From assembly GCF_021631985.1 (NCBI RefSeq), contig NZ_CP070225.1, positions 8,246,001-8,310,000 of the forward strand: a stretch of DNA of 64,000 nt, read 5' to 3'. Positions within the stretch are counted from its first letter, which is position 1. Every line of letters starts with the position of its first letter. The notes beneath the pieces were generated by a model, which saw only the letters and a list, made by a program, of their open reading frames with translations, was not told the DNA's origin and ran no database searches. Below, in pieces: positions 30,523 through 34,020 of this stretch. The translations under genes and the position numbers were made by a program. The DNA is from Sandaracinus amylolyticus. Its GTDB lineage: Bacteria > Myxococcota_A > Polyangia > Polyangiales > Sandaracinaceae.

Positions 30523-31674
30523 ATGGGCCTCCGCACACGCGCGCGCTCGGCCGCGTCGGCCTGCGGCGTGGTCGCGCTGATCACCGCGTCGTGCGCGGCG
30601 CCCGAAGAGCGTCCCGACGCGGCGCTCGAGGCGGTCGCCATCGCGCCGCACTTCACGATCGAGCTCCCGCCCGCCGAGCCCGCGGCGACGATCGCCCGGA
30701 TCGACACGTTCCTCGGCGAGCCCGATGCGCCTCGCGTCGCGTCGCTCTCGGAGGCCGCGCTCGAGGGCGTCGCACGCGGACGCGGCGGCCGCAGCGTCGC
30801 GTTCGTCGTCACCCTGCGCGACGGAACGCGTGGGTACTTCAAGCCCGAGCAGACCTTCTCGAGCGGCTCCTACGCCGCGGAGATCGCCGCGTACCACCTC
30901 GATCGCGCGCTCGGGCTCGGACGGGTCGCGCCGGTGGTCGGTCGGAGCGTGCCGTGGTCGCGCCTCGAGCCGGTGCTGAGCGAGCACGCGCCCGAGCGAC
31001 TCCGCGAGGTCCTGGTGCAGCCCGACGGAACGGTGCGGGGCGCGCTCGTGTGGTGGATCCCCGAGGCGCTCCCCTCGCTCGATCTGGGCCGGGGCTGGGA
31101 GCGGTGGATCCGCCTCGACGGCGCCCTCGCGATCACGCCGTTCCAGCGTCCCCGCGAGTACGCCGCGCTGGCGTCGGGCGAGGTGCCGATCCCGGTGCGC
31201 GGCGAAGGCCCCTCGGCGGGCGATCCCGATCGCATCGATCGCGCGGCCGAGCTCTCGGACCTCGTGCTCTTCGACTACCTCGCGCACAACACCGATCGCT
31301 GGGGCGGCGACTTCACGAACCTCCGCACCCGCGAGCCCGGTGGGCCGCTGGTGTTCCTCGATCACGGCGCGTGTTTCCTCCGTCACCGCGCGCGCTTCGG
31401 CTACATGGACGCGCGGCTGCGCGCGCTGCAGCGCTTCCGTCGCTCGACCATCGATGCGATCCGCGCGCTCACGATGGACGACCTGCGCGCGCGCTCGATG
31501 CGCGACCCGCTCGGCGCGGCGCTCGACGAGATGCAGCTCGAGCACCTCGAGGAGCGTCGGCGTGTGCTGCTCGATCACGTCGACGCGACACTCGCCGCGC
31601 GCGGCGAGGGCGTGTGGCTCGACGAATCGCCGGCCACCGGCATCTCGAGCAGCCACGTCAACGCTGCGGATTGA
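30523..31674 (+). CDS. FAM20/four-jointed-like secreted kinase candidate, lipoprotein
   Basis: The product is 383 aa. The lipoprotein signal ends ALITASCAAP. Kinase-like features are Lys in GYFKPEQTF (~105), a Glu in SYAAEIAAYHLDRALGL, the segment LFDYLAHNTDRWGGDFTN (~249-266; DRWGGDFTN corresponds to DRHxxN of the Fam20/four-jointed group), and FLDHGACFL (~278), corresponding to the DFG-like Asp. It would phosphorylate extracytoplasmic targets, but activity is unproven. It stands alone, divergent from the Pro-rich gene. A catalytically dead relative or a HipA-like fold is the alternative. Confidence 0.6.
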   Translation: MGLRTRARSAASACGVVALITASCAAPEERPDAALEAVAIAPHFTIELPPAEPAATIARIDTFLGEPDAPRVASLSEAALEGVARGRGGRSVAFVVTLRDGTRGYFKPEQTFSSGSYAAEIAAYHLDRALGLGRVAPVVGRSVPWSRLEPVLSEHAPERLREVLVQPDGTVRGALVWWIPEALPSLDLGRGWERWIRLDGALAITPFQRPREYAALASGEVPIPVRGEGPSAGDPDRIDRAAELSDLVLFDYLAHNTDRWGGDFTNLRTREPGGPLVFLDHGACFLRHRARFGYMDARLRALQRFRRSTIDAIRALTMDDLRARSMRDPLGAALDEMQLEHLEERRRVLLDHVDATLAARGEGVWLDESPATGISSSHVNAAD

Positions 31675-31727
31675 TTCGTTTTTCTGTCCAGAACAGCGCG
31701 GCACGCAGCGTGCTCGGGGGCCGCGCC

Positions 31728-31889
31728 GTGCCTGATCCCGAAGAGAACCGATTCACCCATTCCCCCGACCTGCAGGTGTTCGAGCGCGACGACGCCGAAG
31801 CGGCGCTCCACCTCGCGCTCGCGATGCTCGACGAGGTCGCGCACGCGAACACGCACGACGCGCCCGCGCCCGAGATGCCCGAGGCCTGA
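31728..31889 (+). CDS. Small protein of unknown function
   Basis: 53 aa from GTG at 31728, beginning MPDPEENRFTHSPDLQVFER. Acidic and probably helical (AALHLALAMLDEVAHAN). It lies 53 bases after the kinase-like gene, so it may be co-transcribed. No family recognised. Its small size and the GTG start make the call tentative. Confidence 0.4.
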   Translation: MPDPEENRFTHSPDLQVFERDDAEAALHLALAMLDEVAHANTHDAPAPEMPEA

Positions 31890-32065: not shown

Positions 32066-33124
32066 ATGAAGACCCCCCACGAAGCCGGATACGAGCAGCC
32101 TGCCGAGTGGGCGCGGCACGAAGCGGTGTGGCTCGCGTGGCCGAGCGACGAGACGCTGTGGCAGGAGTCGCTCGAGGCGGCGCAGCGCGAGTTCGTCGGG
32201 CTCTGCGACGGCATCGCGGATCCCGATCCCCAGACCGGCGCGCCGCGCGGCGAGCGCCTCGAGATCCTGGTGCGCACCGAGAAGGACGAGCGCGACGCGC
32301 GCGCGGCGCTCGAGCACCTCGGCACGCGGTTCCATCGTCAGCCCTACGGCGACATCTGGCTGCGCGACACCGCGCCGGTCTTCCTGCTCGATCGCATGCT
32401 GCGGCTCGGCTCGGTGCGCTTCGTCTTCAACGGCTGGGGCGGCAAGTACGAGCTCGAGGGCGACGCCGATCTCGCGCAGCGCGTGCAGTCGATCGTCGGC
32501 GACGAGGTGCCTGCGTTCGCGCTCGACTTCGTGTGCGAGGGCGGCGCGATCGAGGTCGACGGCGAGGGCACGGTGCTCACGACCGAGCAGTGCATGCTCA
32601 ACCGCAACCGCAATCCGCACCTCGAGCGCGAGGCGATCGAGCGCACGCTCGAGGGCGCGCTCGGCGTGCGTCGCGTGCTCTGGCTCAAGAACGGCCTGCT
32701 CAACGATCACACCGACGGGCACGTCGACACGCTCGCGCGCTTCGTCGCGCCGGGCGTCGTGGTGTGCATGAAGCCGAGCGGCGACGACGATCCCAACGCC
32801 GCGGTGCTCGAGGAGATCGCGAACGATCTCTCGTGGATGGTGGACGCGAAGGGTCGGAAGCTCCAGGTGGTACGGATGCCCTCGCCGGGGGGGGTCGTCG
32901 ACGACGACGGCGAGATCATGCCGGCGAGCTACGCGAACTTCTACGTGGGCAACACCAGCGTCGTGGTGCCCACGTACGGCACGCCTTGGGACGAAGCGGC
33001 GGTGCGCGCGCTCGAGCCCCTCTTCCCCGAGCACCGCGTGGTCGGGCGCATGAGCAAGACGATCCTCGAAGGCGGCGGCGCCTTCCACTGCATCACCCAG
33101 CAGCAGCCGGAGCGATCCCGATGA
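32066..33124 (+). CDS. aguA: Agmatine deiminase
   Basis: The product is 352 aa. The family (porphyromonas-type peptidyl-arginine deiminase/AguA) motifs are present: WLRDTAPVF (~95), NGWGGKYE (~118), HTDGHVD (~214-220) and the C-terminal catalytic Cys in GGGAFHC (~340-346). It hydrolyses agmatine to N-carbamoylputrescine and ammonia. It overlaps aguB by ATGA, completing the agmatine-to-putrescine route. No arginine decarboxylase gene is present. Confidence 0.93.
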   Translation: MKTPHEAGYEQPAEWARHEAVWLAWPSDETLWQESLEAAQREFVGLCDGIADPDPQTGAPRGERLEILVRTEKDERDARAALEHLGTRFHRQPYGDIWLRDTAPVFLLDRMLRLGSVRFVFNGWGGKYELEGDADLAQRVQSIVGDEVPAFALDFVCEGGAIEVDGEGTVLTTEQCMLNRNRNPHLEREAIERTLEGALGVRRVLWLKNGLLNDHTDGHVDTLARFVAPGVVVCMKPSGDDDPNAAVLEEIANDLSWMVDAKGRKLQVVRMPSPGGVVDDDGEIMPASYANFYVGNTSVVVPTYGTPWDEAAVRALEPLFPEHRVVGRMSKTILEGGGAFHCITQQQPERSR

Positions 33125-34020
33125 GCAGCAAGCAGGCGAACGAGGTCACCGTCGCGGCGATCCAGTGTCCGCTCGGCGGCTCGCGCGCGCAGAACGTCGA
33201 GCGCGTGATCGGATGGGTGCGCGAGGCGGCGAAGCGCGGCGCGAACGTGGTGCTCCCGAGCGAGCTCTTCGAGGGGCCCTACTTCTGCTGCGAGGAGAAG
33301 GAGCGCTGGTTCGAGGAGGCGCGTCCCTTCGAGGGCAACGAGACGGTCGCGCTCTTCGCGAAGCTCGCGAAGGAGCTCGGCGTGGTGATCCCGATCTCGT
33401 TCTTCGAGAAGGCGGGACCCGGCGCTTACTACAACACCGTCGCGATGGTCGACGACGGCGGGAACGTGCTCGGCTGCTACCGCAAGAGCCACATCCCCGA
33501 CGGGCCGGGCTACGAGGAGAAGTTCTACTTCCGGCCCGGCGACACCGGGTTCAAGGCGTGGAAGACGCGCTTCGGCACGCTCGGCGTCGGCATCTGCTGG
33601 GACCAGTGGTACCCGGAGTGCGCTCGCGCGATGACGCTGCTCGGCGCGGAGCTGCTCTTCTATCCGACGGCGATCGGCAGCGAGCCCCACGCGCCCGAGC
33701 TCGACACGCGCGACCCCTGGCAGCGCGTGATGATCGGTCACGCGGTCGCGAACGCGACGCCGGTGATCGCGGCGAACCGCATCGGCAGCGAGCTCACCCA
33801 GACGTTCTACGGATCGTCGTTCGTCGCCGACATGCGCGGCGACAAGGTGAGCGAGCTCGATCGCACCACCGAAGGGCTCGTGATGGCGACCTTCGATCGC
33901 CAGAAGATCGCGAGCTACCGCGCGAGCTGGGGCTTCTTCCGCGATCGCCGCCCCGAGCTCTACGGCGTGCTGATGACCGCCGACGGCCAGCACGTGGTGC
34001 GCGCGGCGGGCAAGGTCTGA
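33121..34020 (+). CDS. aguB: N-carbamoylputrescine amidase
   Basis: The product is 299 aa, a nitrilase-superfamily enzyme with the catalytic triad: Glu in VLPSELFEGP (~46), Lys in CYRKSHIPDG (~121) and Cys in GVGICWDQWYPE (~157). It hydrolyses N-carbamoylputrescine to putrescine, CO2 and ammonia. Co-translated with aguA (ATGA overlap), which supports the assignment over a generic nitrilase. Confidence 0.93.
   Translation: MSSKQANEVTVAAIQCPLGGSRAQNVERVIGWVREAAKRGANVVLPSELFEGPYFCCEEKERWFEEARPFEGNETVALFAKLAKELGVVIPISFFEKAGPGAYYNTVAMVDDGGNVLGCYRKSHIPDGPGYEEKFYFRPGDTGFKAWKTRFGTLGVGICWDQWYPECARAMTLLGAELLFYPTAIGSEPHAPELDTRDPWQRVMIGHAVANATPVIAANRIGSELTQTFYGSSFVADMRGDKVSELDRTTEGLVMATFDRQKIASYRASWGFFRDRRPELYGVLMTADGQHVVRAAGKV

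Follow-up and report, generated by a model that had tools for sequence, protein, structure and literature searches.

The closest described relatives of the protein considered here are the animal FAM20 proteins FAM20A, FAM20B and FAM20C (PF06702), whose solved structures include those of hydra Fam20 (5xom/5xoo), human FAM20C (5yh3) and C. elegans Fam20 (4kqa). Passages of two accounts trace Fam20 through animals only (PMC5865150, PMC7948968), and in a passage of another the FAM20 cluster is termed specific to eukaryotes or to Metazoa (PMC9758233). On the bacterial side, CotH is described in part of one article as an atypical kinase similar to Fam20C (PMC12189002).

Here we describe a protein encoded in the window, the whole stretch of 64,000 nucleotides that was analysed, whose membership in the FAM20 family at the level of homology is close to certain and whose relatives form a real bacterial branch of this family. 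The explanation that we prefer as a whole, and regard as fairly probable, is that it acts as a FAM20-family phosphotransferase which is exported and probably anchored in a membrane.

Family membership and predicted fold

The reading frame runs from ATG to TGA over exactly 30523-31674 of the forward strand, in a source genome of 10.96 Mb, and a codon-usage gene caller picks the identical start and end. The gene carries the following features:

30523..31674, + strand: FAM20-family kinase gene, 383 aa (frame and start, FAM20 homology, model and fold)
30523..30594, + strand: putative N-terminal export signal in which ITASC, up to Cys24, resembles a lipobox; type I cleavage at SCA/AP is also possible (sequence, Cys of the ortholog, rule-based scan)
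30841..30843, + strand: codon of Lys107, aligned with the FKP Lys of FAM20C
30880..30882, + strand: codon of Glu120 (AEIAAYHLDR), aligned with the Glu in the AEIAAFHLDR motif of FAM20C
31294..31296, + strand: codon of Asp258 (NTDR), at the catalytic base position, which is Asp299 in hydra Fam20 (as given in a passage of PMC5865150)
31360..31362, + strand: codon of Asp280 (FLDHG), at the DFG-like metal-binding Asp position

Compared on its own with the Pfam Fam20C model, the window protein scores 23.6 bits, under the gathering cut-off of 26.8, and a phmmer search against PDB chains returns Fam20 at E 4.4e-7 and weaker, with only FAM20 chains up to E 10. A profile built from 32 bacterial relatives and searched against the PDB matches human FAM20C (E 5.3e-37), FAM20A (4.2e-31), hydra Fam20 of the FAM20B type (1.1e-28) and C. 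elegans Fam20 (3.5e-27); PI4-kinase type II, the family that comes next, has E 0.005. The match to FAM20C covers profile positions 14-281 of 284, up to the last helix, and the stretch DPLAPVL...LE.L.RR...L.HV is common to both. Within a set of 52 proteins (A2), consisting of the window protein and 51 proteins from the 61 loci of a peptide-pattern scan, the hits at E<=0.01 are to Pfam Fam20C in 40 (best 2e-21), to FAM198 in 26 (best 9e-7) and to HipA_2 in 7. The FAM198/GASK1 match is weak and, in the window protein, limited to the short stretch 118-155. The CotH spore-coat kinases (PF08757) are also bacterial, but the window family is much closer to animal FAM20; the Pfam CotH model matches neither the window protein at E<=10 nor any of the 52 family members at E<=0.01. 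The resemblance to FAM20-like kinases claimed in the preliminary description is thus borne out and falls specifically on FAM20A, FAM20B and FAM20C; the structure and PDB matches to the family include no solved chain of the four-jointed protein Fjx1.

The same description had proposed structure prediction and comparison with FAM20 as a check, and the outcome is a FAM20 fold. The AlphaFold2 model, computed from the 52-row alignment of the window protein and related loci, has a pLDDT of 86.4 and a pTM of 0.82, with pLDDT <50 confined to residues 1-26, 31-36 and 375-383. With this model as the Foldseek query, rows 1-28 are all Fam20 chains (best E 4e-15, DrFam20C1). In VIA-align, Fam20 entries score Z 24.2-25.5 (hydra Fam20 with sugar 25.5, zebrafish Fam20C 25.1, human FAM20C 24.9, FAM20A 24.3), and the next fold is PI4KII at 16.3. 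The kinases of the PI4-kinase type II, HipA-like (Z about 10-12) and SCO1664 families belong to the same superfamily and are far weaker than FAM20 in both sequence and fold; a generic kinase or a chance motif is ruled out, as FAM20 beats every other family on both counts. Since the top rows are tied, the fold gives no choice between the glycan-kinase and the protein-kinase branches. Phage families (PHROGs) and defence families (PADLOC) gave no match.

Catalytic residues, N-terminus and probable export

The segments YFKPEQ (residues 105-110, with Lys107), NTDRWGGDFTN (256-266) and FLDHG (278-282), on whose FAM20-like order the kinase proposal had been built, are all present in that order and align with FAM20C. 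In the profile alignment the counterparts in human FAM20C are the FKP Lys for Lys107, the Glu of AEIAAFHLDR for Glu120, the Asp of NMDR for Asp258 and the Asp of LDNG for Asp280. The most telling motif is AEIAAYHLDR with Glu120, which was absent from the initial list. The bacterial family thus has in common with animal FAM20 the fold, the catalytic Lys/Glu/Asp/Asp and the motifs FKP, AEIAA.HLDR.L...R.PPVVGR, G.L..W.PE, N.DR, LDNG and DPLAPVL...LE.L.RR.

Among the 32 aligned relatives, Glu120, Asn256, Asp258, Arg259, Asn266 and Asp280 are invariant, and Lys107 is conserved in >=90%. A wider set of 75 distinct proteins comprises all called genes at E<=1e-5 among the collected loci together with the window protein, after removal of duplicates (97 to 75); loci with no called gene, such as L131 and L147, are absent from it. 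Here Glu120, Asn256, Asp258, Arg259 and Asp280 are kept in 75/75 and Asn266 in 74/75, position 260 is Trp in 58/75, and Lys107 is Lys in 68/75 and Arg in 5, the other 2 being distant Acidobacteria rows with no Lys aligned. Lack of conservation of the key Lys and Asp in homologs had been named beforehand as the result that would speak against a kinase; what is found is their conservation, and because these residues are invariant or nearly so in the relatives, the three segments are not chance words. The gene is under purifying selection, with a dN/dS of 0.16 against the same-genus ortholog in genome G008 (368 codons). Catalysis by the window protein is considered likely.

This conservation also bears on the idea of a pseudokinase or binding protein, whose fold would be kept for ligand sensing or for the activation of a partner, as FAM20A activates FAM20C. 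The genome has three FAM20 copies, one with Arg for Lys107, which would allow a pair of enzyme and pseudo-enzyme; we nevertheless judge this explanation highly improbable for the window protein, whose four catalytic positions are intact, the acidic ones being kept throughout the 75 relatives. The copy with Arg in place of the catalytic Lys is the third of the source genome (L046:8126-9169; G000:C1:10250128-10250976); four other relatives have the same replacement, and all five are candidate pseudokinases.

Not all details of the active site are those of the animal proteins. None of the animal FAM20 chains has an Asn where the window protein has Asn266, and the metal site is therefore not quite the same. 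Hydra Fam20, which is of the FAM20B type, contacts xylose through His301 and Lys321 (stated in a passage of PMC5865150), and these residues correspond to Trp260 and Ala283 in the window protein. A FAM20B-like xylosylkinase, to which the top fold rank of hydra Fam20 (tied with FAM20C) and the recurrence of GALILWLPE might point, is not favoured because the two contacts are not kept. With the catalytic machinery retained and the xylose contacts replaced, the substrate is probably not proteoglycan xylose, and in a pocket that has neither the His nor the Lys it would differ from that of FAM20B. The window protein has Cys only at 14, 24 and 284, and from residue 62 onwards 40/75 relatives have no Cys and 21/75 have one. 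Animal FAM20 proteins have conserved disulfides, which the bacterial relatives, having so few Cys, would do without.

The bacterial branch further differs from animal FAM20 in its leaders of the Sec/lipobox type. In the window protein the leader reads MGLRTRARSAASACGVVALITASC-AAPEERP, with Thr at -3 of ITAS-C24, where Leu, Val or Ile is usual, and cleavage by signal peptidase I at SCA/AP is also conceivable. The same-genus ortholog (L033) keeps the Cys (LIAASC); textbook lipoboxes occur in relatives, as LLGC (L041), LAGC (L042), VSGC (L043) and VIGC, with LAGC/LLGC in genus g43, and some other relatives carry type I signals. By a home-made rule, export-type N-termini are present at the called starts of 43/75 relatives against 201/647 neighbour genes, and over all nearby starts in 58/75 against 272/647; the lipobox type accounts for 20/75 relatives against 62/647 neighbour genes. 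Export of this FAM20-family protein is considered likely. The earlier designation as a lipoprotein calls for some correction: Cys24 is lipobox-like, it is kept in the ortholog, and export signals are common in the family, but the protein's own lipobox (TASC) is imperfect, and we retain the designation with moderate confidence.

A kinase that stays in the cytoplasm because its N-terminus is no working export signal, and whose target is a metabolite or protein of the cytosol, perhaps one of agmatine/putrescine metabolism, would fit the imperfect lipobox, the 17/75 relatives in which this crude rule detects no signal at any tested start, and the products of the neighbouring aguA and aguB genes, which begin with no obvious signal. 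It fits poorly with the enrichment of hydrophobic leaders, the textbook lipoboxes of relatives and the long, low-complexity linkers behind the leaders, and we regard it as improbable. According to the preferred explanation, Sec would export the chain and a lipidated Cys24 would hold the protein in the envelope, release by signal peptidase I being less likely. A linker modelled at low confidence and poorly conserved would be followed by the kinase domain at about residues 59-368. There the nucleotide would be held by Lys107 and Glu120 and the metal by Asp280 and Asn266, and Asp258 would serve as the base in the transfer of phosphate to a hydroxyl group on a glycan or protein of the envelope.

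Gene neighbourhood and distribution

Downstream of the kinase gene lie two genes of putrescine synthesis:

32066..33124, + strand: aguA-like gene of the agmatine deiminase family (PAD_porph; Pfam PF04371, 373 bits), a conserved downstream neighbour
33121..34020, + strand: aguB, N-carbamoylputrescine amidase, with a 4-base overlap with aguA (NCBIfam agmatine_aguB, 424 bits, cut-off 410)

Against NCBIfam agmatine_aguA the first of these reaches 281 bits, under the cut-off of 381.8. The two genes follow in the same order in 21/75 distinct loci, including the window. A comparison of all 84 aguA places with the 51 FAM20 places among the matches listed, which makes the count a lower bound, finds a FAM20 gene <=3 kb upstream of aguA on the same strand in at least 30 of the 83 aguA-bearing genomes (of 144 in the order), 25 of them with 14-59 bases between the aligned ends. 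Such neighbours occur in genomes of families f1, f3, f4 and f7, and some relatives have the two genes almost in contact (gap of 9 or -4). The position of the kinase gene just upstream of aguA-aguB suggests shared expression with polyamine or growth state. The aguA gene is, however, also common with no FAM20 gene adjacent. Other FAM20 clades have other neighbours, so the aguAB link belongs to this clade and not to the whole family; the neighbourhood need not reveal the substrate of the kinase. A frame of 72 aa between the kinase gene and aguA (31671-31889) is probably not a gene, as it has no Pfam match and no similar stretch in the 114 loci searched.

Elsewhere in the family, a clade with type I signal peptides (L044, L045, L046-L051, L141, L143 and others) adjoins CcmC/CcmD-like genes in 15 loci, a phosphodiester glycosidase (NAGPA) gene lies upstream of FAM20 in 7 loci (L036-L040, L043, L118), and a polysaccharide deacetylase gene is a neighbour in 5 loci; one member of each kind, the CcmD-like gene excepted, was confirmed with Pfam. 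Similar large lipoprotein-like genes stand beside FAM20 in L036, L037, L039 and L199, with Pfam IgGFc_binding confirmed for L037 and L199.

The window protein has matches in 10/10 genomes of its family. The bacterial FAM20 profile matches 114/144 sampled genomes of the order (E<=1e-5) and 77/282 of the phylum (E<=1e-8), and the Pfam Fam20C model alone matches 27/282 phylum genomes and 0/14 control genomes. When 84,980 species were scanned, 61 loci emerged, almost all with titles of Myxococcota or Deltaproteobacteria and a few with titles that are uninformative or name Proteobacteria; as the scan used a single peptide pattern, other phyla may be missed. Two of the 61 are distant, PI4K/SCO1664-like loci of Acidobacteria. 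In these (L160:7695-9751, L161:7869-9904) the kinase, which appears to carry a signal peptide, is encoded 2 bases from a calcineurin-like phosphatase that likewise seems to start with one, and the two may form an exported kinase/phosphatase pair. More distant profile matches occur in f21/f38 and other Myxococcota genomes (G016, G022, G027, G032), often in frames of about 800-1300 codons that are perhaps multi-domain proteins.

Three bacterial clades are resolved in a tree in which animal FAM20, represented by three chains, joins next to the Polyangiaceae clade (SH-aLRT 92); the tree has no outgroup, the animal stem is very long (1.86) and of odd composition, and the tree gives no direction of descent. 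The window gene shares an ancestor with animal FAM20. Full-text literature searches for FAM20 in Myxococcota, myxobacteria or deltaproteobacteria brought up no such description. The review 'forty families and counting' (Gradowski et al. 2020), which is said to cover bacterial kinase-like families, could list the branch, and priority is not claimed.

Possible ATP supply and envelope phosphorylation

That a target outside the cytoplasm would require ATP there had been seen as a puzzle from the outset, and the puzzle is real; one would not expect the ATP of the cytosol in the periplasm. A possible answer comes from one lineage and constitutes the only direct hint of a supply: in 4/4 genomes of genus g43 (G208, G384, G385, G386) the gene directly behind that of a FAM20 lipoprotein, and on its strand, codes for a relative of the ATP/ADP carriers (NTT/TLC), as at L198:4331-6814 (G208) and in L206, L207 and L208. 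The carrier of G208, 12 bases from the FAM20 gene, scores 65 bits with Pfam TLC (cut-off 21) and 71 bits with the NCBIfam NTP/NDP exchanger model, so far under its cut-off of 387 that ATP transport by these carriers is not established. Among the best 30 NTT loci, 4 adjoin FAM20, all in g43.

Co-occurrence at the level of genomes is given little weight. By Pfam, NTT/TLC is found in 37/77 FAM20-bearing genomes of the phylum against 53/205 of the remainder, and in 25/33 against 1/10 in the order, both counts being uncorrected for kinship and genome size; a more sensitive query finds NTT relatives in 211/317 genomes of the class, and the bulk association is for these reasons set aside, leaving the g43 gene pair. 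The source genome itself has TLC-like carrier genes at C1:10436293-10437201, 10440531-10441025 and 5819509-5819751, which are not linked to its FAM20 genes; in one of them weak HEAT-like repeats follow in the same protein.

The ATP problem would dissolve if the exported protein were a working transferase that takes phosphate from a donor other than ATP (polyphosphate, pyrophosphate, or a lipid or sugar in activated form) or that moves a different group, for example AMP as in SelO-type pseudokinases. Asn266 and the metal site that it alters would accord with this, and pseudokinase-like folds other than FAM20 are reported, in a passage of one article, to AMPylate or glutamylate (PMC10211241). 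However, the protein retains the FAM20 catalytic residues in their places, and the window gene has no link to a donor enzyme, so we consider such a transferase unlikely and continue to prefer an exported phosphotransferase of the FAM20 type.

We speculate, with considerable doubt, that Myxococcota may possess a system of envelope phosphorylation in which FAM20 kinases, exported and held by a lipid anchor, modify glycans or proteins of the surface and draw on periplasmic ATP from relatives of NTT-family ATP/ADP carriers, a supply that may be likened to that of the Golgi lumen for animal FAM20; the animal proteins would then be an offshoot or sister of this bacterial family. FAM20 is treated as animal or Metazoa-specific in passages of earlier work (PMC5865150, PMC7948968, PMC9758233), and with a bacterial branch that is large, catalytically intact and for the most part exported, its history would extend beyond animals. 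Such a branch would offer simple monogenic systems for FAM20 biochemistry, and it would make testable both ATP-dependent phosphorylation outside the Gram-negative cytoplasm and the energy supply on which this would draw.
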